A stretch of 64,000 nucleotides of DNA from Paracoccus kondratievae (GTDB lineage Bacteria; Pseudomonadota; Alphaproteobacteria; Rhodobacterales; Rhodobacteraceae). The notes below the pieces were generated by a model. The model was not told the DNA's origin, ran no database searches, and saw only the letters and a list, made by a program, of their open reading frames with translations. How positions within the stretch are numbered: the first letter of the stretch is position 1; the number at the start of each line of letters is the position of its first letter. The position numbers and the translations under genes are program-made. The stretch spans positions 496,001 through 560,000 of the forward strand of contig NZ_CP045073.1 in NCBI RefSeq assembly GCF_009301415.1. Reading direction: 5' to 3'. Below, piece after piece: positions 205 through 51,370 of this stretch.

Positions 205-2418
205 TCAAAAATCCATACTGGCTGACAAAAGGAAGGTCCGCGGCGCACCATAGCCACCGGCAAGATTGCCACCGGCCCAATAGGCCTTGTCAGTGACGTT
301 CTGGATCGTCGCGCGGACCGTCAAAGGGTTGCCGCCTATTTCGGCCTCATACCGGGCACCGATGTCGAGTACCGTATAGGCGGGCAGCGACAAGGTGTTG
401 TCGTTGCTGGCATAACGCTTGCCCGTATGGTTCAGGGCACCGGTCAGCGTCAGGCCGGGCACCGGGGCAACGTCATATTCCACCCCGAGTTTCGCCATAA
501 AGGCCGGAGTTCCCGCCGCCTTCCTGCCTTCATTCTCTGAAACGCTGGCCTTGGTGATCTTGGCATCGGTATAAGACGCGCCGCCCAGCAGACGCAGACC
601 GGGTGCAACCTCACCAAAGACGTTCAGTTCAATCCCGCGGTTGCGCTGTTCGCCGTAAACGCCATAGACCATGGTCACGGGGTCCAGATAGGCGCTTGGC
701 TTGGTGATCTGAAACAGTGCCAGTGTTGTCGCAAATGCGCCCTGATCCCATTTCCCGCCCAGTTCGACCTGCCGCGTCCGATAGGGGGGCAGGGTCTCAC
801 CCGCGTTCACTGCGTTTGCCGGGGCATCCTGCCCGGGGCTCAACCCCTCGATATAGTTGCCATAGAAAGACAGCTGGTCGGTCGCCTTATAGACAAAGGC
901 CAGTGCGGGAGAGGTCCGGCTGGAATCATAGCTCGCGCTTGTCGTGCGAACGCCCGTGGGGCTGATCATCACATTCGAGCTTTCGACGGTCTGATGACGC
1001 AGGCCAAGGGTCAGCTGCAACCGGTCGTCAAACAGCTTCATCGTATCGGCAACGCCGATGCTGGTCAGTTTCTGATTGATGATCTGGGTCGGACCGCTGG
1101 CATCATAGCCGCTTAGATCCGGGGCATGGCCCCAGTCGGGATTGGCGATATTGGTGGTCGAGGTAATTCCCAGCCGCGCATCCTTATAGGTGTTGCCGGA
1201 ATCGAAACGGGTCGCGGTAATGGTCCAGTCATGCCCGACCGCACCGGTGATGAAACTGCCGCGCAAGCCCAACTCGGCTGATTCCTGTGTCCCGTCGCGA
1301 CGCGAACGGATGGCGCTGACCGTCATGTCCCCGGCATTGTTCAGCAGCGTGCTGCTGGTCATCAGCGCGTCATATCCCCCGGTGCGGCGGCCATATGCGG
1401 CCCAGGCGGTGATATCGTCGGTAAGATCAACCTCTCCGCGCAGAACAAAGGTCTCGGTCTCATTGGTGTTAAAGGACCACGGCGCGGCCAAGGAATGCTC
1501 GCCGCTGCGCGCCTTGGGCAGGGTGGTCACGTCGCTGCCTGCCGAAAGGCCGAAATAGTTCACGCCCTTCATATCCTCGCGCAGCTTGTAATAGTCCAGC
1601 GCAGCGCGGGCCCGCTCACCCCGCCAATCCAGCGCCACCGAACCCATATCGACGCCATGCTTCTGGTTTTCGACCGCAGTATCGCCGTCGCGGGTTACCG
1701 CATTGACGCGCAGGCCCCATTCCTTATTCGCGCCGAACCGACGACCAACATCCGCATGAAGGCCCCACAGGCTGTCCGAACTGTAAGAGGTCGTCACCCG
1801 GGTCAGGGGATCGTCGCCCGCGCGTTTGGGAACCAGTGCCACCGCGCCACCCACACTGCCGCCCGGAGGCATCCCGTAAAGGAAGGTCGAAGGCCCCTTT
1901 AGCACCTCGACCCGCTCGGCGAATTCGGTGGTGCCGCGCATGTTCGGCGCCATCCCGACCAGCCCCGCAAAGGTCACGTCATCGGCCGAGCTGAAAAAGC
2001 CGCGAATCGTATAGGTCTCATAGATATTGCGCTTGTTCGGAACATAGATCGCAGGATCCGTGCCGCCGATAGCCGAACCGATATCCTGCGCCTCGCGGTT
2101 GCGCAGATGCTCATCGGTATAGGCGATGGTGCTGTAGGGCGTCTCCATAAAGTCCTTGTTGCCCAGGATACCGACGCCGCTGCCGGCAGCCACCTGACCG
2201 CCGGAATAGGCGGGGGCCGTACCACCCTTGGCCCGCAGGACAATGGTGTTCAGCCGGATCGCCGCACCTTCTGCCGGCTCTGCCGCGCCGCTAGGCGCCT
2301 CTTGCGCAGCGGCAGCAGTGGAAAGCGCAAGCCCGGCCAGAATCGTCGTCACCCACAGCCGGCGGGCGACGGTCCGAACGCGGCCTGTCTCGCCCGGTAT
2401 CATGTTGGAATTCTTCAT
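205..2418 (-). CDS. TonB-dependent siderophore receptor (FhuA/FpvA type)
   Basis: Outer-membrane receptor of 737 residues for energy-coupled uptake of ferric siderophores. The chosen ATG gives a basic N-terminus and a signal peptide ending near AAAAQE. Next come a TonB-box-like NTIVLRA, a plug domain (residues about 60-210, with KGPSTFLYGMPPGGSVGG) and a beta-barrel that ends in the typical aromatic SASMDF. Upstream in-frame ATGs at 2448 and 2457 would make the reading frame cover a perfect inverted repeat. The inner start, with GGGGA just before it, leaves that repeat in the leader or promoter. It is followed by a FecCD-type permease and faces a TetR gene, which suggests a locally regulated iron-uptake locus. 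The siderophore cannot be told from sequence. Confidence 0.9.
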   Translation of the reverse strand: MKNSNMIPGETGRVRTVARRLWVTTILAGLALSTAAAAQEAPSGAAEPAEGAAIRLNTIVLRAKGGTAPAYSGGQVAAGSGVGILGNKDFMETPYSTIAYTDEHLRNREAQDIGSAIGGTDPAIYVPNKRNIYETYTIRGFFSSADDVTFAGLVGMAPNMRGTTEFAERVEVLKGPSTFLYGMPPGGSVGGAVALVPKRAGDDPLTRVTTSYSSDSLWGLHADVGRRFGANKEWGLRVNAVTRDGDTAVENQKHGVDMGSVALDWRGERARAALDYYKLREDMKGVNYFGLSAGSDVTTLPKARSGEHSLAAPWSFNTNETETFVLRGEVDLTDDITAWAAYGRRTGGYDALMTSSTLLNNAGDMTVSAIRSRRDGTQESAELGLRGSFITGAVGHDWTITATRFDSGNTYKDARLGITSTTNIANPDWGHAPDLSGYDASGPTQIINQKLTSIGVADTMKLFDDRLQLTLGLRHQTVESSNVMISPTGVRTTSASYDSSRTSPALAFVYKATDQLSFYGNYIEGLSPGQDAPANAVNAGETLPPYRTRQVELGGKWDQGAFATTLALFQITKPSAYLDPVTMVYGVYGEQRNRGIELNVFGEVAPGLRLLGGASYTDAKITKASVSENEGRKAAGTPAFMAKLGVEYDVAPVPGLTLTGALNHTGKRYASNDNTLSLPAYTVLDIGARYEAEIGGNPLTVRATIQNVTDKAYWAGGNLAGGYGAPRTFLLSASMDF

Positions 2419-2436
2419 GGTCATTGTCCCCGCAGT

Positions 2437-2463
2437 ATTTAGTTGCATATGTCTCAACTAAAT
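2437..2463. promoter_or_regulatory. Perfect 9-bp inverted repeat, candidate TetR operator
   Basis: ATTTAGTTG, nine bases, then CAACTAAAT: both arms match exactly. It lies 19-45 bases upstream of the receptor ATG, in the gap facing the TetR gene. Size and symmetry fit a dimeric regulator such as that TetR protein. It does not look like the iron-responsive RirA or Irr boxes of alphaproteobacteria. The function is inferred. Confidence 0.55.
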
Positions 2464-2608
2464 TCGGAGATGGCCTGTAAACCAACCTACAGAAACAGTC
2501 AACTTAATGTTTTGGTCAGATGAAGAGCCCAGATTTGGTTAGAAACGACAGGCGATATGCTCTATGCGCGCCTGCGTGGCCGCCCCATCAAGACCAGAAA
2601 GGAACGCC

Positions 2609-3253
2609 ATGAATTCGGACACCCCTGCCGCACCCCGTGGCCGCCCGCCGACCATCACGCGCGAGCGTATCGCCAATGCCGGTATCGCCATCGGCCTGCC
2701 AGAGCTGACCTTTGTCGGGGTCGCAGCCCGGCTGGGTGTCAGCCACATGGGCCTTTACAAGCATGTCTCGGGGTTGGAAGAGCTGCGCCGCCTGATCGCC
2801 GAAGAGATATTTCTGCGCTGGCAGTTTCCCCCACCTGCCCAAGCGAGGCGCGAGAACCTGCAAACCTATATGACCGGGTTTGCGGAATCGATCTGGCGTC
2901 TTGTCGCTGCCCATCCGGGGATCGCCCCCTATCTGCTGCGCGGCGACATGATCACCCCCGCGATGACCGAAAAAATCGTCGCGCATCAGGAGGCAATGAT
3001 GCTTTCATGCGGGCTGACCTTTGCACAATCCCGCTGGCTGCTGCTGACCATCGCTTTCCATTGCGTCGCCGTCGCCGATACGGTGCTGCCCCGGACCGCA
3101 CGCGACGCACCAACTGACCCGGATGAAAACCCGATCGACCCCGAGCACCGCGACGGAATTCGCGCCTTGATCATCGGGGCGATGTCCATCCTCGATCAGA
3201 TCGAGAGCTTTCCCTATCCGGTCGAGGCGACAGCCGGATACCAGAAGGGCTGA
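2609..3253 (+). CDS. TetR/AcrR family transcriptional regulator
   Basis: 214-residue repressor-type protein. The N-terminal helix-turn-helix is at residues about 12-58 (RGRPPTITRERIANAGIAI, then VAARLGVSHMGLYKHVSGLEELRRLI), followed by an all-helical ligand-binding domain. The start is set by AAGGAA seven bases before ATG; an upstream in-frame ATG at 2564 lacks a ribosome site. It is transcribed away from the siderophore receptor and is the likely binder of the inverted repeat at 2437-2463. Its ligand is unknown. Confidence 0.85.
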   Translation: MNSDTPAAPRGRPPTITRERIANAGIAIGLPELTFVGVAARLGVSHMGLYKHVSGLEELRRLIAEEIFLRWQFPPPAQARRENLQTYMTGFAESIWRLVAAHPGIAPYLLRGDMITPAMTEKIVAHQEAMMLSCGLTFAQSRWLLLTIAFHCVAVADTVLPRTARDAPTDPDENPIDPEHRDGIRALIIGAMSILDQIESFPYPVEATAGYQKG

Positions 3254-3389
3254 AACCCCACAGCTTGCGCCATTTCATGCGGCCTCCCAATATCTGGGGG
3301 CCAAGGCTTGCCGCCGCCCGTGATGCGGGGCAGAACTAGGCGGCAATCATCCAGCCTCCCCGGCGGATCTTAGTAAGGTATGATCCATA

Positions 3390-3992
3390 ATGACCAACAA
3401 GACCATCGAACTGCTTGCCCAGCGGCGGACCCAATATGCACTTGGAAAGAGCCTGCCCCATTCTCAGGATAAGGTTGAAGCCCTGATCAAACAGGCCATC
3501 CGCCTGTCGCCCTCGTCCTTCAATTCGCAAAGCTCGCGCGCTGTCATCCTGTTCGGCGCGGAAAGCGATAAAGTCTGGTCGCTGATCGAGGCAGAGCTGC
3601 GCAAGATCGTCCCCGCCGACGCCTTTGCCTCGACCGAGGCCAAGATGAAGGGGTTTGCCGCCGGTGCCGGCACCGTACTGTTCTATGAAGATCAGGACAC
3701 GGTCCGCGACCTGCAAGAACGCTTTCCGCTTTATGCGGATGCCTTCCCGGGTTTCTCCAGCAACTCGGCGGGGATGGCCCAGCTGGCAGTCTGGACCGCG
3801 CTGGCCGAAGAAGGGATCGGCGCAAGCCTGCAGCACTATAGCCCCATCGCGGATGAGGCTTTGGCGCAGGCCTTCGGCATCCCTTCCAGCTGGAAACTGA
3901 TCGCCCAGATGCCCTTCGGCTCGAACGAAGCCGCGCCGGATGAAAAGACATTCATCGAGGATGAAAAGCGTTTCGTCACACTGGGCAGGTAA
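3390..3992 (+). CDS. Nitroreductase family protein (Frm2/Hbn1-like)
   Basis: 200-residue FMN-dependent oxidoreductase of the short nitroreductase class. The N-terminal block ELLAQRRTQYALGK, the SPSSFNSQSSRAVIL FMN-contact region near residue 32, and the C-terminal WKLIAQMPFGSN block match the family. Such proteins reduce nitro compounds, quinones or lipid peroxidation products with NAD(P)H, and many have no known substrate. It is a single gene with AAGG shortly upstream and a GC-rich hairpin just after the stop. The link to the TetR gene before it is only proximity. Confidence 0.85.
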   Translation: MTNKTIELLAQRRTQYALGKSLPHSQDKVEALIKQAIRLSPSSFNSQSSRAVILFGAESDKVWSLIEAELRKIVPADAFASTEAKMKGFAAGAGTVLFYEDQDTVRDLQERFPLYADAFPGFSSNSAGMAQLAVWTALAEEGIGASLQHYSPIADEALAQAFGIPSSWKLIAQMPFGSNEAAPDEKTFIEDEKRFVTLGR

Positions 3993-3999
3993 GCCTTAG

Positions 4000-4020
4000 C
4001 GGGGGCGGCTGCCGCCCCCG
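4000..4020 (+). terminator. GC-rich hairpin after nitroreductase gene
   Basis: Nine-base perfect stem (CGGGGGCGG / CCGCCCCCG) with a three-base loop, starting 7 bases after the stop codon. Only a short T-rich tract (ACTTTCC) follows, so this may be a weak intrinsic terminator or an mRNA-stabilising hairpin. Confidence 0.5.
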
Positions 4021-4363
4021 ACTTTCCCCGACGGTTCAGGTGGCCCGCCCCAGCCACCGCATTGCATCACGCTGACCAGCCGTTTGCCGCCGTGATGCAG
4101 GACAATTCCTGGCAGCCTCGCATTCCGCCCGCAGCTCATTTCGCGGCACAAATTTCCGGATGTTCCCGAAGGCGGCCAAAGGCAGGTGGTCGCGCACCTC
4201 CAGCCGTTCAGGGAAATACTGCCGGTCAAGGCGCTGGCCGGACAGGAAATCCACCGAGGATCGCCGCGACGGAATGAACGCCTTTGCTGAAAATCGAAAG
4301 CCCTTATTTCGCAACCGCTAAGCCGACTTCGGCCAGCAGGGACGGATCATCGCGGCGACATTC
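4021..4363. other. Intergenic region without a recognisable gene
   Basis: About 340 bases between converging genes. A minus-strand frame (4036-4314) begins like a short protein, but I recognise no family and it has no ribosome site. Reading continues plausibly in different frames along the stretch. It may be a decayed gene, but nothing firm can be said. Confidence 0.3.
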
Positions 4364-5272
4364 TTAAGCCACCGCCAAGCCCAGATCAGCCTCAAGCCGC
4401 GCCAAAGCCTTGGCATCGGGCGAGATTGCGACCAGCCGGTTCACCTGCATACCCTCGGGCAGCGCGGCAGGATCAAGCGACAGCGCGCCACCTGCGAGTT
4501 GTACAAGAAGGGGGCGCTCGATCCCCGCGCATCGGACATAGCCCTTAAGCCGGTGAACCGCGTGCCGATGCCGTTCGATGATCTCGGCCAGCCGCCCGCG
4601 TTCGGGCGCGGGGCCGAGTGCGATGGTGCGGCTGGCAAACAACCTTTGGTGATCACGCTCGGGCGCAAGCGCCAAAAGGCTGCGGCCATCATGGGGCGCA
4701 GCCAGCGCCTGCATAAAGACCCCATCCAGCGCACGATGCTGGCTTGCCAAAGGGTTCAGCCCGGCAGTCAGCCTTGCCACCCGGCGCATGGATGCACGGG
4801 AGGCGATATCAGCACGTGACAAAAAGACGGCGTCGGCACCGCGGATCTGGCTTTCCACGACCTTGCCTATCCGCGGGTCAGCCAGTCGTTCGGGCAGCGT
4901 TTGCGGGTCAGTCACCGCCACCACCGCCCGACAATCCAGATCCGGCTCGGCCAAAGCAAAGCTCGCCAGCCGCCGGGGTTCAGCAACGCCGCTTGCCTCG
5001 ATCATCAGCCGGTCGACCTTGTTGCCAAACCGCAGGGCCCGCTCAAAGGCCTCGAACAGCCCACCGCCCATCGTGCAGCAGATGCAGCCGTTGCTAAGCT
5101 GGATCGTATCCGCTGAGCGGAGTGAAATCAGTGACACGTCAATCGCTATATCGCCGAAATCATTGACCATGACGAGGATACGCTCTTGCCGCTGTTCAAG
5201 CAGGCGGTTCAGCAGCGTCGTCTTGCCCGCACCCAGATAGCCGCAGAGGATATTGACCGGCAAAGGTGCCAT
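4364..5272 (-). CDS. CobW/P47K family GTP-binding metallochaperone-like protein
   Basis: 302 residues of the COG0523 family. These are G3E GTPases that deliver metals (Zn, Co, Fe) to enzymes. Seen in order: Walker A GYLGAGKTTLLN near residue 11, the metal-binding GCICC motif near residue 62, a Walker B-type IEASGVAEP, and a C-terminal CobW_C domain without a long His-rich tail. It starts 2 bases after the stop of the amidohydrolase, so the two are translationally linked. That suggests it supplies the metal for that enzyme. The metal cannot be read from sequence. Confidence 0.88.
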   Translation of the reverse strand: MAPLPVNILCGYLGAGKTTLLNRLLEQRQERILVMVNDFGDIAIDVSLISLRSADTIQLSNGCICCTMGGGLFEAFERALRFGNKVDRLMIEASGVAEPRRLASFALAEPDLDCRAVVAVTDPQTLPERLADPRIGKVVESQIRGADAVFLSRADIASRASMRRVARLTAGLNPLASQHRALDGVFMQALAAPHDGRSLLALAPERDHQRLFASRTIALGPAPERGRLAEIIERHRHAVHRLKGYVRCAGIERPLLVQLAGGALSLDPAALPEGMQVNRLVAISPDAKALARLEADLGLAVA

Positions 5273-7014: not shown

Positions 7015-7959
7015 ATGCATTACACGCTGAAACACCTGCACTACATCGAAGCGGCCGAGCGGCACCAATCGATCACTGCCGCAGCCGAGGGGCTGGCAGT
7101 TTCGCCCTCATCCATCGCGGCCGCCATCGACCATATCGAGGCACAGCTGGGCCAGCCGATCTTTGCCCGCGTGCCCTCACGCGGGATTGCAGCAACCAGC
7201 TTTGGCCGCAAGATCATCGACGAGATCCGCCTTTTGCTGGCAGCGCAGTCGCGTTTCGACGGCAAGATCACCGATCTTGAGCAACGCATCGACGGCACCG
7301 CCCGAATCGCCTGTTTCACGCCGCTGGCACCGATCCTGCTGCCGACCATCCTGTGCGAAGTTCGCGAACGTTACCCAAATCTGGCAATCGAGGTGATCGA
7401 GGGGAACTGGGAAGAGCTCGCCCGCGCCGTCGATACGGGTGACGCCGATTTCGCCTTTTGCTATGGGATGGCTAACGACATGACCTATCGCTTCCTGCCG
7501 CTTTTCGTTGCCCATCCCCATGCAGCGTTGCCCGCGGTTCATCCGCTGGCCAGCGGACGTTTCGTCACGCTGGAACAACTGGCGCCCGAACCGCTGGTGG
7601 TGCTGGATCTCGACATGTCGCGGCGCTACCTGATGGAGCTTTTTTCGGCGCGGGGGCTGAAACCGAACGTGGTCTATTCAGCCCGCTCGACCGACATGAT
7701 GCGGGCGCTGATCGCCGCCGGAATGTGTTACGGGATCTTTAACATCCGCCCAATGAGTAAGCAGACCTATGCCCGGGGCGATCTGGTCCGGCTGCCGCTG
7801 GCGGGCGAACATGACGCCCCCCGCGCGGGGGTCCTGACTCGCCGTGACGTACAACTGTCGCCAGTTTGCGAAGCGATTATAGCTACTTGCGAGATGCAGG
7901 CGATGCGCGGGGAATTTGACCGCGCCTTTGTGCGGCCCTACCTTCCACAAGATTTCTGA
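7015..7959 (+). CDS. LysR family transcriptional regulator
   Basis: 314 residues. The winged helix-turn-helix fills residues 1-60 (LKHLHYIEAAERHQSITAAA, then SPSSIAAAIDHIEAQLG), followed by a two-lobed effector-binding domain. The ATG at 7015 has GAGGG upstream; an earlier in-frame ATG at 6967 lies inside the candidate operator and has no ribosome site. It lies between the divergent amidohydrolase-CobW pair and the co-directional ABC importer genes. It is the obvious candidate to control both in response to the imported compound. Confidence 0.88.
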   Translation: MHYTLKHLHYIEAAERHQSITAAAEGLAVSPSSIAAAIDHIEAQLGQPIFARVPSRGIAATSFGRKIIDEIRLLLAAQSRFDGKITDLEQRIDGTARIACFTPLAPILLPTILCEVRERYPNLAIEVIEGNWEELARAVDTGDADFAFCYGMANDMTYRFLPLFVAHPHAALPAVHPLASGRFVTLEQLAPEPLVVLDLDMSRRYLMELFSARGLKPNVVYSARSTDMMRALIAAGMCYGIFNIRPMSKQTYARGDLVRLPLAGEHDAPRAGVLTRRDVQLSPVCEAIIATCEMQAMRGEFDRAFVRPYLPQDF

Positions 7960-7974
7960 GGAATTCTGGCGCAA

Positions 7975-7984
7975 AAATGCATTT
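7975..7984. promoter_or_regulatory. AAATGCATTT palindrome upstream of ABC operon
   Basis: Perfect 10-bp palindrome 80 bases before the start of the solute-binding protein gene. It shares the core aaATGCAT with the repeat at 6969-6983, so the same LysR protein could bind both. Short palindromes arise by chance, hence the low confidence. Confidence 0.3.
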
Positions 7985-8063
7985 GCCGGAAAGGCCGCCT
8001 ATGGCCGATCCATTGGATGCAGCGCCACCACAGAATTTGGCGCGCGACCAACAGGAGATTCAG

Positions 8064-9656
8064 ATGATCCCGAGCCCTGCCTTTTCACGTCGGTTCCTGC
8101 TGGCCGGCGCGGTCGCCCTGGCCGCACTTGGCACCGCCCCCTCCATCTCTGCGCAGGAGGCGCAAAGAGGTGGCACGCTGGTCGTCGCCTCGGTGCAAAA
8201 ACCACGCCACCTGAATGCCGCCGTCCAGTCGGGCATCGCAACCGCCGTCCCCGCCGCACAGATTTTTGCCACATTGCTGCGCTATGGTGAGGATTTCGAG
8301 CCTCAGCCCTATCTGGCCGAAAGCTGGTCGTTCAGCGAGGACAGCAAGGTTCTGACCCTAAAGCTGCGCAGCGGCGCGACCTTTCATGACGGTCAGCCGA
8401 TCACCGCCGAGGACGTGATCTGGTCGCTGGGCGTCGTCAAGGAAAACCACCCGTTTTCAAGCATGCTCGCGCCGGCCGAGACCTTTGAGGCGCCTGACCA
8501 GCAGACCGTTGTCATCCGCATGACGCAGCCCCATCCCGCGATCCTGCTGGTGCTGTCATCGGCTTTGACACCGATCATGCCCAAACATGTCTTTGACGAC
8601 GGGCAGGACATCAAGTCGAACCCGAAAAACAACATGCCCGTCGGCTCGGGCCCTTTCAAGGTAACGGCTTTCGAGCCGGGGCAGCATATCATCCTGGAGC
8701 GTCACGATGGCTTTTTCCTCAAAGACAGGCCCTATCTGGATCGGATCGTCATCCGCCAGTATCAGGATCCGAACTCGGCCGTGCTGGCGCTTGAATCGGG
8801 CGAGGCGCAGCTTTTCCCGATGCTCGACTCGACCCGACTGATCCGGCGGCTTGAGAAGTCCAGCAGCCTGACCATCAGCGATCAGGGTTATGCCGGGATC
8901 GGTCCGGTAAACTGGCTCGCCTTCAACACCAAGCACCCCGCCCTGTCCGATGTGCGCGTGCGTCGGGCCATCGCTTACGCCATCGACCGCAATTTCATCA
9001 CCAAGGCCCTGCATTCAGGCCTGTCCAAACCCGCGATCGAGCCGGTCGTGCGGGACAGTCCCTTCTTTACCGAAGAGGTCGAGCGTTATGACTTTGATCT
9101 CGACAAGGCCAAGGCTCTGCTGACCGAGGCAGGCTTTGGCGAAGGGGGGCAGACGCTGAAACTGCGCATCGACTATCTGCCCGACACTGACGAGCAGCAG
9201 CGTTCGGTTGCGGAATATGTCAAGGCGGCGCTGGCCAAGGCGGGGGTCGAGGTCTCGGTCCGCGCCTCGCCGGATTTCCCGACCTGGGCACAGCGTGTGT
9301 CCTCTTATGATTTCGATATGACGATGGATCTGGTCTTCAACTGGGGCGACCCGGTGATCGGGGTGAACCGGACCTATCTGTGTTCGAACATCCGACAGGG
9401 GATCATCTGGTCTAACACCCAGCAATATTGCAACGAAGAGGTGGACCAGCTCCTGAACGCAGCCGGGGACGAACCGGACCTGACCAAGCGCAAACAGCTT
9501 TACGCCCAGGCGTTTGGACAGATCACCGCCGACATCCCGATCCATTTCCTTAATGAGATTCCCTATCACACGGTCTGGTCTCAGGCGGTGCAGAACCCGC
9601 CCATCTCGATCTGGGGGGCAATGGGGCCGATGGATGAGGTCTGGCTGAAGCAATAA
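8064..9656 (+). CDS. Dpp/Opp-type ABC transporter solute-binding protein
   Basis: 530-residue periplasmic binding protein of family 5 (peptides, nickel, opines, glycosides). The N-terminus SRRFLLAGAVALAALG followed by ISAQE is a Sec or Tat-like signal peptide. The mature part has the family block around FATLLRYGEDFEPQPYLAES and the hinge region VRRAIAYAIDRN near residue 320. The ATG at 8064 follows AGGAG; the longer upstream frame lacks a signal-like start. First gene of a five-gene transport operon. The substrate is unknown; the neighbouring amidohydrolase points to an amide or modified peptide. Confidence 0.88.
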   Translation: MIPSPAFSRRFLLAGAVALAALGTAPSISAQEAQRGGTLVVASVQKPRHLNAAVQSGIATAVPAAQIFATLLRYGEDFEPQPYLAESWSFSEDSKVLTLKLRSGATFHDGQPITAEDVIWSLGVVKENHPFSSMLAPAETFEAPDQQTVVIRMTQPHPAILLVLSSALTPIMPKHVFDDGQDIKSNPKNNMPVGSGPFKVTAFEPGQHIILERHDGFFLKDRPYLDRIVIRQYQDPNSAVLALESGEAQLFPMLDSTRLIRRLEKSSSLTISDQGYAGIGPVNWLAFNTKHPALSDVRVRRAIAYAIDRNFITKALHSGLSKPAIEPVVRDSPFFTEEVERYDFDLDKAKALLTEAGFGEGGQTLKLRIDYLPDTDEQQRSVAEYVKAALAKAGVEVSVRASPDFPTWAQRVSSYDFDMTMDLVFNWGDPVIGVNRTYLCSNIRQGIIWSNTQQYCNEEVDQLLNAAGDEPDLTKRKQLYAQAFGQITADIPIHFLNEIPYHTVWSQAVQNPPISIWGAMGPMDEVWLKQ

Positions 9657-9674
9657 CCGGCAGAGGCAATCGAG

Positions 9675-10646
9675 ATGTTCAAAGCTATCCTCAGGCAGCT
9701 GCTTTACGTAGCGGCCCTGATCCTTGCGGTCCTGGTCCTGAATTTTCTGCTGATCCAGCTTGCCCCCGGTGATCCGGCCGAGGTCATCGCCGGTGAAATG
9801 GGCGGAGCCAATGCCGAGGTCATGGCCGCGATCCGCGAGCAATACGGGCTCGACAAGCCGGTACTGACCCAGCTGGCCCTGTATCTGGGCCGCGCATTGC
9901 AAGGCGATCTGGGCACCTCCTATTTCTACAATCGCCCGGTGGCCGAACTGATCCTGTCGCGCCTTGGACCAACGCTGCTTCTGGTGGCGACCGCGCTGGC
10001 TTTTGCGCTGATCATCGGCACGCGGCTGGGAATGCTGGCATCGCGCAATCCGCGCGGGATCGCCTCGGCACTGGTCACGGTGCTGTCGCTTGTCGGATAT
10101 TCGGCACCGGTGTTCTGGACCGGGCTGATGCTCGTCATCTTGTTTGGCGCAACCATACCGCTGTTTCCGATCGCCGGGATGATCGACGTGGTGAAACAGG
10201 GTGGCCCGCTGGGCCGTGCACTGGACATCGCCCATCATCTGGTTCTGCCGGCGTTGACGCTGGGGCTGGTCTATCTGGCGCAATACAGCCGCCTGACCCG
10301 CGCCGCGATGCTTGAGGTTTTGGGCGCGGATTACATCCGCACCGCCCGCGCCAAAGGGGTCAGCGAGCGGCAGGTCTTTGGCCGCCACGCCTTTCGCAAC
10401 GCCCTGCTGCCGGTCGTGACCGTCGCGGGCATGCAGTTCGGCACCATCATTTCGGGCGCGGTCCTGGTCGAGACGGTGTTCAGCTGGCCAGGACTTGGGA
10501 CGTTGGCCTTTCAGTCGATTCTGGCCCGCGACTATCCCACTGTGATGGGTATCCTGTTCTTTTCCACTCTGATCGTCATCATCGCGAACCTGCTGACCGA
10601 TTTCATCTCGCGTCTGCTGGACCCGCGCCTTGCCGGAGGTCGCTAA
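9675..10646 (+). CDS. ABC transporter permease, DppB/OppB type
   Basis: 323-residue inner-membrane permease. It has an N-terminal helix (LYVAALILAVLVLNFLL), the family block LAPGDPAEVI, about six membrane segments, and the cytoplasmic EAA loop ADYIRTARAKGVSERQVFGR near residue 215, which contacts the ATPase. It lies 18 bases behind the binding-protein gene and 3 bases before its partner permease. Confidence 0.92.
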   Translation: MFKAILRQLLYVAALILAVLVLNFLLIQLAPGDPAEVIAGEMGGANAEVMAAIREQYGLDKPVLTQLALYLGRALQGDLGTSYFYNRPVAELILSRLGPTLLLVATALAFALIIGTRLGMLASRNPRGIASALVTVLSLVGYSAPVFWTGLMLVILFGATIPLFPIAGMIDVVKQGGPLGRALDIAHHLVLPALTLGLVYLAQYSRLTRAAMLEVLGADYIRTARAKGVSERQVFGRHAFRNALLPVVTVAGMQFGTIISGAVLVETVFSWPGLGTLAFQSILARDYPTVMGILFFSTLIVIIANLLTDFISRLLDPRLAGGR

Positions 10647-46300: not shown

Positions 46301-46700
46301 CAAACGGGTGCGGGGGCCCTCTTGCCGACGCTCACATCGTTGCAGGCGGGCCCTTTGGGCCTATGCCGGTGACCCCCAAGGCCCTGTGCCCTTTGCCGGC
46401 AGGGCTGTGATGGGCGGTTCTTCACGCAGTGTTTCCGACACGAATGAAAGCTGGTTTCTTTGACACCCAAAGCCCCGGAAAATAGGCGCGATACCGACTG
46501 CTTTCATTGCCGCAACCTTCTGAGATCATCCCGGCGTTACGCGCCTGCGTCATTTTTCCAAAACGCTCCTCGGCAATTTGTGTGACACACACGAATCCAC
46601 AGGCATGCGCTTCGGCTACTCGCCTTTATCCTGCGGCTATCCTGCAGCACGACCCATCCACCCGGCCGCCGTGGGTCTTCTGCCGGCCCAGAATCAGGGC
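46301..46700. other. Island edge, no intact gene
   Basis: About 400 bases between the glutamate-synthase-like gene and the IS remnant. No frame has a family motif. It probably represents insertion scars. Confidence 0.3.
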
Positions 46701-46709
46701 TCACAACCA

Positions 46710-47367
46710 CTATATGACGTTTGCGGCCAGGGTGCAGGCGGAGAGGGACAGGATCGGGCAACGGTCGTATCGGGTTCCGATGCAGCGCCAGTCCTTGAGG
46801 CGTGCGAACATGTTCTCGATCCGGTGGCGCAGGCGGTAGAGTCCGGTGTCATGCGGGATCGAGGTTTTCCGGCCGGTGCGGGAGGGGGGGTGCGGGAGGG
46901 GATGCACGGCGAAATACCCGTCCCGATCAGCGCATTGCGGGACCAGCCGGCATCAAGACCCCGGTCTGCAAGCAGCGCCCGCGCGCCAATGTAGCCGGAG
47001 GTCTGGCCTGCCGACAGGAACATCCGGATCGGACGGCCCTTTGCATCCGCCAGGCTCGATGCGGTTCGATGCGCCCTGGCGTGGGTCGCGTCGATCATTA
47101 CGATCCCGGTCTTCTGCGCTTCGGCAGCCTGTTCGGTCATGATCGTGGCGAACACACCCATCCGGCTCCACCGCTTCCAGCGGTTGCAGAGCGTCTTCGG
47201 CGGGCCATCGGCCGCAGGCGCGTCCTTTCACATCAACCCATTGCGCTGGATGAAGATTATCCCGCTCAACACCCGCAGGTCATCGGCCCTCGGCCTGCCC
47301 GGGACTTCGGAAAGAACGGCCGCAGCTGCTTAATCTGCGCGTCTGTCAGCCGGTAAAGTTCGCTCAT
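46710..47367 (-). pseudogene. IS5-family (IS427-like) transposase, multiply broken
   Basis: From ATG 47367 the start MSELYRLTDAQIKQLRPFFP is typical of these transposases. A frameshift after RAGRG is needed to continue as ADDLRVLSGIIFIQRNGLM, followed by TGA where relatives have Trp, then KDAP and GPPKTLCNRWKRWSRMGVF. Past IDATHARAHRTASSL (catalytic Asp) a second shift near 46900 leads to LYRLRHRIENMFARLKDWR. At least two frameshifts and one nonsense codon make it dead. I could not find clear terminal inverted repeats. Confidence 0.85.
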
Positions 47368-47538
47368 GATCCCTCCCCAAGTCGGGAGTTTGAAGCATCC
47401 CGCCCGCCGGCATTCAAGAATATAGGTCCCAACTCAAGAAATGAGTATGGCGACGCTTGTGTGATTGCAGCGGCGTTGTTGCAGACGTCCCCGGCAAGCA
47501 GGATTTCCATGTAGAATCCATGGGTTTAATAGTCTGTC

Positions 47539-47916
47539 ATGACCCGGCCTGACCCGAGCCACTACCGCACGACGAACTGGAAGTCCTACAACGATGCGCT
47601 CAGGCGGCGCGGGTCTTTGCTGATCTGGCTGGACAAGGACATGGTCTGGCGCGCACCGAAGGCCGGGTACAACGGTCGGCCGCCGGTATTCAGCGATGCC
47701 CCCATCCAATTCTGCTTGATGGTGAAAGTCCTGTCCGGACTGCCGCTACGGCAAACGACCGGGATCGCGGTCGCGGCGATCCGCACACCGATCATCCGTA
47801 AGCTGAAACAGGGCACTCCCGGCCAGTTGGGCCCGATCTCGCGCGTATTGGCCGAGGCTGCGGACGGGATTATTCGCCTTGCGGGCCAAGCTTGCGGATC
47901 GGAACAGGCCGCCTGA
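47539..47916 (+). pseudogene. IS5-family transposase N-terminal fragment joined to unrelated sequence
   Basis: [20 protein letters not shown] through [14 protein letters not shown] (residues 1-75) is the N-terminal part of an IS5-type transposase of a different subgroup from the one to the left. After that the frame continues with [15 protein letters not shown] and [15 protein letters not shown], which does not resemble the transposase and which I cannot assign. The end overlaps the 3' end of the immunity gene. The DDE domain is missing, so the element cannot move by itself. Confidence 0.7.
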
Positions 47917-48655
47917 GGCCGCCGCCATCCGGTATCGGCTCCCAGCCGATCAGGGTGGCCCGATCAAGCTGAGCATGGAAAAGCAGATGCTCAACGATTT
48001 TCACCTTGCGCATATCTTCGGGATATCCTTCGCCGCCCATCTGGCGTGAGGGGAAAAAACCGAAGATCTCGCCAGGCTCAAGACGGCCAAGCCGGTTCGA
48101 GGCTGAGGTGAACAAGTGATAGTCCGTATACTCTTCGTCCATATCACGGGCGAGATTGTAACCGCGATTCCGCAAGTAATGGGCAACGAAAAAATCTGGC
48201 GTCATTGTGCCAAACTGAACATCAGGTAGCGGTTCAGGTCCGTAAACGTCTACTGTTGCGTTATCGAAGGCTGTCAAATCTATTTCACAGTGCTGGTTTT
48301 TTGCACTCCACGCTCGAACTCTACCGTCATATTCATAGGCATAGCAGTCAAACTCATCTGCCGAATATTCGGGATCTCCTTCGAACACAGCTTCCAGAAC
48401 TGGCCGGAGCAGTTCGGGATCACAGAGCCATGCATAGCCTTGCAGCAATGCACCCCGCCCGTTCTTGACCCAAAAATCCAGCAGCCCGTCCGGTAGTCTC
48501 CCGCGATAGCGCTCCGCTTCTGCTTGGCTGACCGGTTCGACAAAATCCATCGGTCCCAGCACATCAAGAATATCATCGAATGGATGACTGCGGTCTGTTG
48601 GTCCGTAATCCTGCAAATTCATGCCACTGAAATCGACGCCGATCTCATCGTTCAT
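47870..48655 (-). CDS. GAD-like/DUF1851 immunity protein (Tdi-like), copy 1
   Basis: 261 residues, cytoplasmic, no signal peptide. A GAD-like domain occupies about residues 25-130 ([45 protein letters not shown]). A DUF1851-type region follows, with [23 protein letters not shown] and [12 protein letters not shown] near 225. It is clearly homologous to the next protein upstream. In Agrobacterium, proteins with this pair of domains neutralise Tde DNase toxins, and here both copies lie directly behind an HxxD toxin domain. The gene is markedly lower in GC than its surroundings (25 of 60 bases at 48241-48300). Confidence 0.8.
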
Positions 48656-48800
48656 AGCGGGTTTCCTTCTATATCAATGCCGCGACCGGGGCAGACCCGT
48701 AGTCACGCATTCATTTTAGGATAGCTATTGGCCTGCAAACGGGTAACATCGCTCATCGAGCAGAGAAGTTGAGAGAGTCGCGGGAAGGTTGTGGGTAACA

Positions 48801-49511
48801 CTATGGCTGCCGTCCGACTTTTCTGCGTGGCACCAGCGTTCCGAAGCCTCCTTGTTCACCCTCGGGCTGGACATAATCGTAGAGCGTCGGCGGTGACAGC
48901 GAAGCCAGCATGACCAGATGCTCGATCAGCGGCAATCTTTGCAGGTTCCTGACGGGGTAATCACCAGAGGCCGAATAGGCGGGAACGAAGCCATAGATTT
49001 CGCCAGGGGCCAGTTCGCCAAGATTTTCCAGTGCCCAGGGGAATAGTGGGATCATGTCTTCGTCGTTCCAGTCAAGACGGTAGGCGCCATCATCAATTTG
49101 GAAGTATATTGGCTTGAAATCGGGCCTGCTACCCCGATAATCTGGGCTGGATTGATCGCGCCATGTCACCGTCCCGAAAGCAAGGTTGATGGTCATGGTC
49201 CTGCCCGCCCCCATGAACACATCGATCATCCCGAGCGCATTATAACCGAACGGGATCAGATCATCGACATTGTATTCCGGATCACCCGCGAAGACCTCGT
49301 CCATCACCGGGCGCAGGAAATCCGGATCACAAACCCAATACTGACCTTTGCTGAGCGATCCCCAGCCTTGTTCAGTCCACCAGCGCAAGAGGAAATCCGG
49401 CAGGCGCCCCCGCCATTTTTCGACCTGTGCTTCTGTCGGATAGGAATGAGCAACTGGCGCATATTTGCGGATCAGCGCGTCGAAATAATCCTGCTCACTA
49501 TACTGAACCAT
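48801..49511 (-). CDS. GAD-like/DUF1851 immunity protein (Tdi-like), copy 2
   Basis: 236 residues with the same domain order as copy 1: EAQVEKWRGRLPDFLLRWW, CDPDFLRPVMDEVFAGDPEY, then FPWALENLGELAPGEIYGFVP and PLIEHLVMLASLSPP. It lies immediately after the toxin gene, with a 12-base gap, and is the first candidate for the cognate antitoxin. Copy 1 may be an older or differently specific duplicate. The N-terminal 25 residues and the middle part differ most between the copies. Confidence 0.82.
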   Translation of the reverse strand: MVQYSEQDYFDALIRKYAPVAHSYPTEAQVEKWRGRLPDFLLRWWTEQGWGSLSKGQYWVCDPDFLRPVMDEVFAGDPEYNVDDLIPFGYNALGMIDVFMGAGRTMTINLAFGTVTWRDQSSPDYRGSRPDFKPIYFQIDDGAYRLDWNDEDMIPLFPWALENLGELAPGEIYGFVPAYSASGDYPVRNLQRLPLIEHLVMLASLSPPTLYDYVQPEGEQGGFGTLVPRRKVGRQP

Positions 49512-49523
49512 GCTTGTTCTCCC

Positions 49524-50066
49524 TCACCGCCCTCGATCGACACAAATCTCAAGAACGACCTGGACCGAAGGACATCCGTTCCTTTGCTGTTCCATGGCGT
49601 GATTCGCCAGCCGCTGCGATCTGCCGCCCCGCCATTGCGATCCCATCGAGCTGTTCTCGTTGAGGCCGCCAATGCGGTCTCGCAGCGGGATCGACGGATC
49701 GGCAACCGAGGTATAGGCCCCGCCCGCGATCATGTCGGGATTGTGCAAGGCGGCAACGGTTTCCATGTGCGCGTCGAGCATTTTTCTGCCATCTGGGCCA
49801 TATAACCTATTGTATTCCCTAATTTTCGAGGACCGATATTCCGCTCTCGTTCTTGCCTGCAACGGCTCGGACAGCTTGCGCATGCCTTCGGGATTGGCGA
49901 GATAGGCGCCACGGTTGCCCAACATCTCGCCCGGCGTCATCGCGTTCAGCGCCCGCTCCTGCAACTTCAATTGCCGGCGGAACTCGGTGCGATCCACATC
50001 GGGACTGACCGGCATGAAGCAGAGCAGCTGAACCTTGCAGCGCGGGCGTTCCTCATCCTCGTCCAC
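49524..50066 (-). CDS. Polymorphic toxin C-terminal domain, HxxD nuclease type (Ntox15/Tde-like)
   Basis: 180 residues from a GTG; the frame is open upstream to a stop at 50277. The toxin region holds LHNPDMIAGG with the HxxD pair His108 and Asp111, then DRIGGLNENSSMGSQWRGGR and HAMEQQRNGCPSVQVVLEIC. This fits the Ntox15/toxin_43 fold of Agrobacterium Tde1/Tde2 DNases delivered by type VI secretion. No N-terminal delivery domain (PAAR, VgrG, RHS) is present. The upstream sequence continues in shifting frames into a phage gene, so this looks like a C-terminal module detached from its carrier. Whether it is expressed is unclear. Confidence 0.72.
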   Translation of the reverse strand: MDEDEERPRCKVQLLCFMPVSPDVDRTEFRRQLKLQERALNAMTPGEMLGNRGAYLANPEGMRKLSEPLQARTRAEYRSSKIREYNRLYGPDGRKMLDAHMETVAALHNPDMIAGGAYTSVADPSIPLRDRIGGLNENSSMGSQWRGGRSQRLANHAMEQQRNGCPSVQVVLEICVDRGR

Positions 50067-50302
50067 GCGGACGTTATCTGGAAACGGGACGGGCTGGGGT
50101 CGGGCGGCAGGATCTTCCGCCGGGGCTTGCTTGCGCTCGCGATGATGTTGCAGTTCCTCAGGGGTGATTGCAGCGCACGCAGTGGCCGCAAAGTGGCATC
50201 GGCCAGCGTCGCATCGGGCGATGTCGAAAGACCCCCCACAGGGGTGGCGGGCGGCGCAGGCGCGCTTTGGTTGTCCTCAAGCACCAGATCGGCCAGCGCG
50301 GG
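50067..50302 (-). pseudogene. Frame-disrupted upstream part of the toxin gene
   Basis: In the toxin frame, ITPEELQHHRERKQAPAEDP runs smoothly into the toxin, but further upstream the sensible sequence moves to another frame (LADLVLEDNQSAPAPP and STSPDATLADATLRPLRALQ). The shift lies near 50168 at a short A run. A second shift in a GCGC repeat near 50297 would lead back to the toxin frame. The two gaps sum to three bases, as if a 1-base and a 2-base deletion had occurred. A TGA at 50277-50279 interrupts the toxin frame in between. Confidence 0.45.
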
Positions 50303-50767
50303 TCAGCAGCGGGGAGGGGATATGCTCGCGGAGGTCAACAAGTGCCGCGCGCTGGTTGGTCCACTGACCCACGCTTTCCGGACTGCTCGCGTAATCGCAG
50401 AGCGAGCGCGGGTCTTCGGCCGCCATGCCGGGTTGAAGAAGAGGTTAGCGGGCATGTTCTTCGTGCCATACTCCTGCAATTTGGCGTTTTGGAAGCGGGC
50501 GCCGCGATCGTTGGTTACTATCGTGGCCTCGTCCCCAACCTTGACCACCACTTCGATGAACCCTCGCGAGCCCTTACCGGTCTGGACCGTCGTTGCATCC
50601 TCCACTCGGATCGAGCGGATCAATTCGCCCTCCTCGCGCGGCGCGAGATAACACATCGCGGACGTCACCTGCTCTCCACTAACCCGCGCCTGCGCCTTAG
50701 CGGCTGCGACAACCTTCGCCGCTTTGCGGCGAAACATGACTTGAACCTCGGGGATGCCGTTGACCAT
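50303..50767 (-). CDS. Phage HK97 gp10-like protein (head-tail/tail completion), remnant
   Basis: 154 residues. EGELIRSIRVEDATT, GDEATIVTNDRGARFQNAKLQEYGTKNMPAN and FFNPAWRPKTRARSAITRAV match the HK97-gp10 family of small tail-completion proteins. The family normally ends soon after the RSAITRAVRKA helix. The last 25 residues (from about 50380 leftward) look like out-of-frame reading of joined sequence. No other head or tail genes remain, so this is a prophage relic. Confidence 0.7.
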   Translation of the reverse strand: MVNGIPEVQVMFRRKAAKVVAAAKAQARVSGEQVTSAMCYLAPREEGELIRSIRVEDATTVQTGKGSRGFIEVVVKVGDEATIVTNDRGARFQNAKLQEYGTKNMPANLFFNPAWRPKTRARSAITRAVRKAWVSGPTSARHLLTSASISPPRC

Positions 50768-50815: not shown

Positions 50816-51052
50816 ATGGAGGTTCACATATCGGATACAGCACGGGCAGGCCAATTTCGCGGCCAACGGATAGGCGAACGGCAAATCCATGAACTGATCG
50901 GTATTGCCCGCGGCCTTCTCGCTGACGGTCACCTGAATGATGGAGAAATCAACTTTCTTCATCGATGGCTGGCCGCCGACGATGGGGCTCGGGCAAACCC
51001 ACTGGTGTCATGCCTCGTCACGGTTAGCGCTATACCGCAGCCATGCAGTTAG
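50816..51052 (+). pseudogene. Fragment of a BRCT/NAD-ligase-like phage or island protein
   Basis: Residues 1-55 (FRGQRIGERQIHELIGIARG, LLADGHLNDGEINFLHRWLAA) resemble the helical N-terminal part of BRCT-domain proteins often found near integrases. The match ends abruptly near 50985 and no BRCT domain follows. The remaining residues are probably read from the neighbouring integrase fragment in another frame. Confidence 0.5.
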
Positions 51053-51201
51053 CCGAGGCAGGATGTACGGACGCCGAGATCCAGTCAGTTACAGGGCACA
51101 AGACGCTGACGATGGTCCAAAAGTACCGCTCACAAGCAAATCAAAAGCAGGTCTCCAAGGCGGCTCAGAGTCGTAGAGAACAGAACAGGGACGGAACGTG
51201 A
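51043..51201 (+). pseudogene. Tyrosine recombinase (phage integrase) C-terminal fragment
   Basis: 52 residues: MQLAEAGCTDAEIQSVTGHK with the HxxR-box-side Gly-His, then TLTMVQKYRSQANQK containing the catalytic Tyr. Just upstream in the same frame is HG, TAG, RYTAA, where intact integrases read HGLRYTAA, so a nonsense codon also marks decay. The catalytic Arg domain is gone. It lies 85 bases from the 3' end of a tRNA-Leu gene, the classical integration position. Confidence 0.8.
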
Positions 51202-51285: not shown

Positions 51286-51370
51286 TGGTGCGGGTGGAGG
51301 GACTTGAACCCCCACGCCTTGCGGCGCCAGAACCTAAATCTGGTGCGTCTGCCAGTTTCGCCACACCCGC
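51286..51370 (-). tRNA. tRNA-Leu (anticodon UAG)
   Basis: 85 bases on the minus strand including an encoded CCA. Acceptor stem GCGGGTG/CACCCGC, discriminator A, anticodon stem CCAGA/TCTGG with loop TTTAGGT (anticodon TAG), the long variable arm of a class II tRNA, and T-loop GTTCAAGTC. Its 3' end faces the integrase fragment, so it probably served as attachment site for the degraded island to the left. Confidence 0.95.

Follow-up and report, generated by a model that had tools for sequence, protein, structure and literature searches.

An orphaned Ntox15 toxin tip with two Tdi-like immunity genes in a degraded tRNA-Leu island of Paracoccus kondratievae

The stretch analysed here (hereafter the window) comprises 64,000 nucleotides of the Paracoccus kondratievae genome (contig NZ_CP045073.1, positions 496,001 to 560,000 of the forward strand) and carries on its minus strand a Tde/Tdi-type toxin-immunity module. 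We consider this module likely to be the orphan tip of a type VI secretion system (T6SS) effector locus of the layout VgrG, DUF2169 adaptor, PAAR-like DUF4150 domain fused to Ntox15, and Tdi, the immunity part of which is perhaps still useful to the cell. This reading is built on the observed domain identities, predicted folds, truncation point and order of the genes, and on the T6SS genes found elsewhere in the same genome. The parts of the module are as follows.

47870..48655, minus strand: divergent Tdi-like immunity protein (second), 261 residues; PF08887 at E 5.8e-16, PF08906 at E 1e-11
48801..49511, minus strand: Tdi1-like immunity protein (first), 236 residues; PF08887 at E 1.1e-21, PF08906 at E 4.7e-13
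49524..50066, minus strand: predicted Ntox15 (Tde-type) DNase tip, 180 residues with a GTG start; PF15604 match and AlphaFold2 model
50061..50159, minus strand: remnant linker of a lost DUF4150 carrier; 33/33 residues identical to residues 209-241 of the related protein P0028

Identity of the toxin and of the two immunity genes

The toxin open reading frame (ORF) matches the Pfam profile of Ntox15 (PF15604) with an E value of 2.2e-34 (119.1 bits against a cut-off of 22.5), its residues 26-175 covering profile positions 4-153 of 153, and the finding of the module is not due to chance. An earlier sequence-only reading of the window had assigned this protein to the Ntox15 DNases from an HxxD motif (LHNPD) and an NSSMGSQW block; both motifs are indeed present in the ORF, which is the single Ntox15 match of its genome (n=1), and the HxxD residues H108 and D111 are invariant in 12/12 aligned sequences. 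When compared by sequence with known structures, the toxin matches three of the Ntox15 type (8g0k, 8fzy and 8fzz; best E 1.4e-11). The AlphaFold2 model, which was built from 12 sequences (pLDDT 90.7, pTM 0.84), has as its sole matches at E <= 0.001 the four chains of 8fzy (Tde1; E 1.3e-6 to 7.0e-6), with TM (query) values of 0.67-0.72 and 29-30% identity in the structural alignments, and the predicted model thus has the Tde fold. DNase activity through the HxxD site is expected by homology with the Bacteroidales Tde proteins, for which passages of PMC10470768 describe a Mg-dependent DNase activity that is abolished by mutation of HxxD.

The order along the minus strand is toxin, 12 bases, first immunity ORF, 145 bases, second immunity ORF. 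The 12-base gap is as the sequence-only reading had given it; the single GAD-like partner named there is in fact two genes, since PF08887 (GAD-like) and PF08906 (T6SS_Tdi1_C), the two profiles proposed for checking, both score above their cut-offs in each of the two ORFs. The two proteins share 34.7% identity and account for all GAD-like matches of the genome (n=2). The first matches Atu4351 (6itw) by sequence at E 4.6e-13 and, weakly, 8fzz_B (4.1e-5); the model built for the second protein (pLDDT 83.3) has no matches at E <= 0.001 besides 6itw (E 1e-13), 8fzz_B and 8g0k_B. The Tdi fold is thus found in the second protein on its model, and in the first by sequence comparison. Inspection by eye revealed a plausible ribosome-binding site upstream of each gene (AGGGAG for the first, AAGGAAA for the second). 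By homology with the published Tdi mechanism, the two proteins would be expected to act as immunity proteins; those of Bacteroidales split the toxin core, according to passages of PMC10470768.

Signals for expression of the toxin are sparse. Its open frame extends upstream to 50276 without any ATG, GTG or TTG codon before the GTG at 50066. None of the five toxin starts tested is preceded by a Shine-Dalgarno motif at normal spacing, the GTG at 50066 being devoid of any such motif, and the one motif found among the five is an AGGAG located 15 bases before the ATG at 49940. A scan for sigma-70-like sites returned none on the minus strand and two on the plus strand, where 1.8 were expected. Given the missing carrier described below, the lack of a start codon before 50066 and the lack of a normally spaced Shine-Dalgarno motif, the toxin is probably silent.

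The breakpoint, related loci and the host T6SS

P0028 is a protein of 419 residues that carries both PF13665 (DUF4150, Tox-PAAR-like) and PF15604 and whose toxin part is 90% identical to that of the window. The identity between the two linkers runs from 50061, where its 3' bases overlap the annotated toxin ORF, to 50159, and ends abruptly at this base, which is the truncation point and identifies the toxin as the 5'-truncated tip of a DUF2169/DUF4150-type T6SS effector. Beyond 50159, the 39 codons upstream scored no better than shuffled sequences against 5/5 effector N-terminal parts (the score was attained by between 128, in the best case, and 1968 of 2000 shuffles). A single blastx alignment, to the first effector ORF of a Roseinatronobacter contig end (L017), reaches past the breakpoint to 50228; when the 39-codon piece that it enters was scored alone, it did not rise above shuffles against the five N-terminal parts. 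The stretch 50160-50312 (about 150 bases) gave only matches of 24-49 bases in a DNA search of the genus and none in a phage search. PF13665 and PF05954 (VgrG) have no match in the window, where the adjoining ORFs match phage or IS (insertion sequence) families or nothing; the negative result for adaptor and VgrG refers to the window and the neighbouring ORFs, PF09937 and PF05488 (PAAR) lying outside the genome-wide searches. The toxin protein thus contains no DUF4150 domain, no VgrG gene and DUF2169 adaptor adjoin it in the window as they would a specialised T6SS effector, and the whole is an orphan toxin/immunity module, with tip and immunity and without a delivery part. The sequence-only reading had suggested that the tip had moved onto a new carrier. 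This idea has to be corrected: as the linker up to 50159 is that of a DUF4150 carrier and nothing effector-like rises above shuffles upstream of it, the tip has been parted from a carrier, not joined to a new one, and the phage gene next to it (gp10-like, see below) is in another frame.

The layouts of related loci indicate what was lost. A search sized for longer proteins returned ten relatives, eight of which carry both PF13665 and PF15604, the other two being P0032 and P0005. One locus (L018) encodes a VgrG-type ORF, a DUF2169 protein, a DUF4150-Ntox15 protein of 522 residues, a Tdi and a second GAD-like gene; another, from the same genus (L043, genome G499; toxin 36% identical), has VgrG-type and DUF2169 genes with a gene for a DUF4150-Ntox15 protein of 502 residues, and L020 likewise lies in a VgrG/DUF2169 locus. 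Twenty plasmid records match the toxin, and the best three of the 20 are annotated with VgrG, DUF2169, polymorphic toxin type 15 and GAD-like genes (NZ_CP092895, an Agrobacterium plasmid whose domains we verified; NZ_CP139999 and NZ_CP120216, from their annotation alone). Other relatives are less complete or differently built: of DUF4150, L017 (84% identical) has just the final part (profile 73-108), in L042 linker sequence continues until the contig ends, L012 and L013 encode an Ntox15 protein without DUF4150 beside a DUF4123 gene, and in L014 Ntox15 is the sole match of a 561-residue protein. In Rhizobium halophytocola (L019), an Ntox15 tip (profile 21-153) is immediately preceded by stops and followed by a Tdi gene, so that the carrier-less tip occurs more than once. 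The comparison covers the loci named here, with L015 and L016 contributing their toxin frame only and L008, L036-L039 and the remaining plasmid records standing outside it. Toxin matches were found in 6/125 genomes of the genus (P. kondratievae included), four of the other five being weak; Ntox15 occurs in 7/394 genomes of the family (own included), six above the cut-off, and in 2/385 genomes of the class survey (own included), the other one below the cut-off, which is too sparse for counting carrier-less tips. The closest named homologues are largely from Paracoccus. As a separate observation, L017 carries at 678-4878 two successive effector-like ORFs with similar starts and different tips. 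Of these, the first matches no Pfam family and the second has the DUF4150 end, and both have an immunity-type gene behind them; three consecutive ORFs at 7098-10298 look recombinase-like by eye, and the whole has the look of a cassette array.

The sequence-only reading had further noted the absence of PAAR, VgrG and T6SS genes, which holds within the window and fails for the genome. T6SS machinery is present: a core cluster at about 724-746 kb of the same contig (C2), 178 kb from the toxin, comprises TssB, C, E, F, K, L and M, a ClpV-like ATPase and an FHA protein, and the genome also holds Hcp and five VgrG-type matches, one of them partial. TssC is found in 48/125 genomes of the genus; no description of a Paracoccus T6SS appears in the titles or abstract openings among the literature matches listed. 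DUF4150 is represented in the P. kondratievae genome by three partial matches at two places. At the first, a VgrG locus at about 1185-1192 kb of C2 (L040:2556-8855), profile positions 3-33 and 29-86 are matched in two frames, the latter in an ORF that also contains part of DUF2169 (39-231 of 294); with both domains partial and in one ORF, this looks like a damaged effector locus. The second, at about 1204.8 kb (L041:1888-1980) and some 659 kb from the toxin tip, matches positions 43-93 and is 97% identical to residues 1-31 of P0028, the start of that protein.

The island around the module

The sequence-only reading had placed the Tde/Tdi-type pair in a degraded island, which is borne out by the tRNA-Leu, integrase end, gp10-like gene and IS remnants that surround it.

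46690..47439, strand unassigned: IS5-like element, degraded; NF033580 at 2.1e-5, below cut-off
47469..47774, plus strand: 5' fragment of an IS5-family transposase; PF13737 at 7e-17, NF033579 profile 1-70 of 289, below cut-off
50303..50767, minus strand: remnant of a phage HK97 gp10/tail-completion-like gene; phrog_5 at 5.8e-9, TIGR01725 at 1.5e-5, below cut-off
51028..51201, plus strand: remnant of a tyrosine integrase C-terminal end; PF00589 at E 2.6e-5, profile 133-170 of 172
51286..51370, minus strand: tRNA-Leu (ARAGORN), probable phage attachment site

The gp10-like gene shares 76% DNA identity over 50313-50767 with a phrog_5 gene of another genus member (L080), which sits between portal and tape-measure genes. 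The integrase remnant scores 24.5 bits with PF00589, under the 27.1-bit cut-off. In two other genus members (L078 and L079), DNA similarity extends from the common flank through the tRNA into the integrase region; L079 has a 335-residue integrase beside the tRNA and, farther away, a member of a phage gene family of unknown function, while L081 has a different integrase and portal and head-protein genes at the same tRNA. With two different integrases beside it (L079, L081), the tRNA-Leu at 51286-51370 looks like a site at which prophages of the genus have attached repeatedly. No phage family was matched by the single ORF tested beyond the tRNA in L077 or by one ORF of L078, and a second tRNA-Leu 3' end at the far end of the island was not found in the window with up to three mismatches allowed. 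An ORF of 78 residues between the integrase remnant and the gp10-like gene (50816-51052, plus strand) has no Pfam match.

On the other side of the module, the IS5-like element shares 92% DNA identity with a copy on another contig of the same genome (C3:434340-435104). DNA matches to the IS5 fragment in other genomes of the genus stop near 47774, and an ORF at 47539-47916, which reads through this fragment, extends into the terminal part of the second immunity gene. On plasmid p_IV of Paracoccus aminovorans (L089:5968-6186), an Ntox15 fragment lies 3 bases from an IS-like match that is related to the IS of the window.

Alternative readings and known systems

In the reading that we favour, the Ntox15 domain would degrade DNA through its HxxD site and the cognate Tdi would inactivate it by wedging into the toxin core, as published for the Bacteroidales Tde/Tdi pairs. 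The carrier part would have been severed at base 50159, leaving the tip beside phage and IS scraps near tRNA-Leu; the toxin, deprived of carrier and clear start, would probably be neither delivered nor produced in any quantity, and the two translatable immunity genes might still protect the cell from Tde-type attack by neighbours. We favour an orphan module with possibly useful immunity on the grounds that the toxin is probably silent and that both immunity genes have plausible ribosome-binding sites. Immunity is the part of the module most likely to be still useful, and may be what it was retained for. A number of observations weigh against this reading. The toxin frame is intact and retains its catalytic motif, which would be unexpected after long disuse; the AGGAG mentioned above stands 15 bases before an in-frame start (ATG 49940) that retains the HxxD site; and P0001, 94% identical to the toxin, likewise has 180 residues, which suggests from the sequences that a short toxin form may persist. 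The lack of a minus-strand sigma-70-like match leaves transcription of the immunity genes unsupported as well. Toxin and first immunity gene have similar ratios of nonsynonymous to synonymous substitution (dN/dS), 0.07 and 0.076 against L017 and 0.129 and 0.138 against L042; these values mix both lineages, and dS is saturated, exceeding 1.5 throughout, so that they do not date the truncation.

The most serious competitor, which we nevertheless regard as distinctly less probable, is that the module serves no function at present, the truncated toxin and the two immunity genes being DNA that was stranded recently and is decaying. The severed carrier, the IS and phage scraps on both sides, the absence of a minus-strand promoter match and the related Ntox15 fragment of P. 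aminovorans p_IV, which ends 3 bases from an IS-like match, are all in line with wreckage; against it stand three frames open over nearly the whole domain length and the plausible ribosome-binding sites kept by both immunity genes. Alternatively, an internal start could give small amounts of the tip, which the first Tdi would hold in check, the two stabilising the island as an intracellular toxin-antitoxin pair, a role that has been reported for orphan Rhs toxins in Salmonella in parts of PMC7043789. The 12-base spacing, the full-length tip, the short form of P0001 and the AGGAG before ATG 49940 speak for such a pair, which we consider unlikely in view of the missing in-frame start codon before the GTG, the lack of a normally spaced Shine-Dalgarno motif at the five starts and, again, the lack of a minus-strand promoter match. 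An extension of this idea, in which low-level intracellular toxin and immunity hold a dead prophage island in place as a maintained unit and the second Tdi covers another Tde subtype, appears somewhat more doubtful still.

The adjacency of phage genes raises two further possibilities. Carriage of the tip on a phage tail or tailocin, or as prophage cargo, is suggested by the gp10-like gene directly upstream on the same strand, and we hold it to be very improbable. A gp10-toxin fusion was considered and rejected: the gp10 ORF ends at 50303, and the toxin lies in a different frame that is open only from 50276 on, after a stop. Among seven island ORFs searched in PHROGs, gp10 alone matched a phage structural family, and gp10 is not known to be an injected spike protein. 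Searches of viral contigs for toxin relatives gave six pattern matches, none of which was confirmed, and a collection of 50,697 phage records yielded one remote Ntox15-like match (33.6%; Streptococcus phage YS34-rum, OP662532.1:79724-80131). An antiphage use, also raised by the sequence-only reading and suggested by the adjoining prophage remnants, is scarcely credible: 0/4 proteins match a known defence family in PADLOC-DB, no relative was confirmed in viral contigs, and the relatives have VgrG/DUF2169 loci (L018, L020 and L043) or a neighbouring DUF4123 gene (L012 and L013) as their setting.

Precedents have been described both for displaced toxin modules and for clusters of orphan immunity genes, so that the module is ordinary in kind; its components and the process are known, and it is most likely the leftover of a well-known weapon and not a new one. 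It is of interest as a clear-cut instance of a T6SS toxin tip whose breakpoint is sharp, the linker being identical to that of a carrier-bearing relative and ending at one base, and as a workable system in which to ask whether immunity genes left stranded go on protecting the cell that carries them.

The nearest counterparts are the agrobacterial DUF4150-Ntox15/DUF2169/GAD-like loci described in sections of PMC8546570, which share with the module the tip (54% identical) and a GAD-like gene immediately after it and differ in that here the tip is truncated and VgrG, adaptor and DUF4150 part are absent; the same sections report agrobacteria with immunity homologues in clusters and with orphan immunity genes arising from recombination. 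Agrobacterium Atu4351 (Tdi1, 6itw) resembles the first immunity protein by sequence and the second by fold, with only 20% identity in the structural alignment with the second. Toxin fold, HxxD site and immunity fold are held in common with Bacteroidales Tde1/Tdi1 (8fzy, 8g0k, 8fzz), where the tip is fused to Hcp according to passages of PMC10470768 and the structural alignments show 29-30% identity. Orphan CdiA-CT/CdiI modules of contact-dependent inhibition (CDI) systems likewise combine an immunity gene with a delivery gene's displaced 3' part, near integrase or transposase genes, as set out in portions of PMC4927057; they belong to CDI and not to T6SS and are commonly found downstream of a parent locus, of which there is none nearby here. 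Two models proposed in those portions for CDI orphan modules are the retention of immunity and a silent reserve. Finally, the orphan tdi genes of Bacteroidales acquired interbacterial defence systems, as presented in parts of PMC10470768, are a further case of immunity kept apart from a usable effector, from which the P. kondratievae module differs in that its array still includes a toxin tip.

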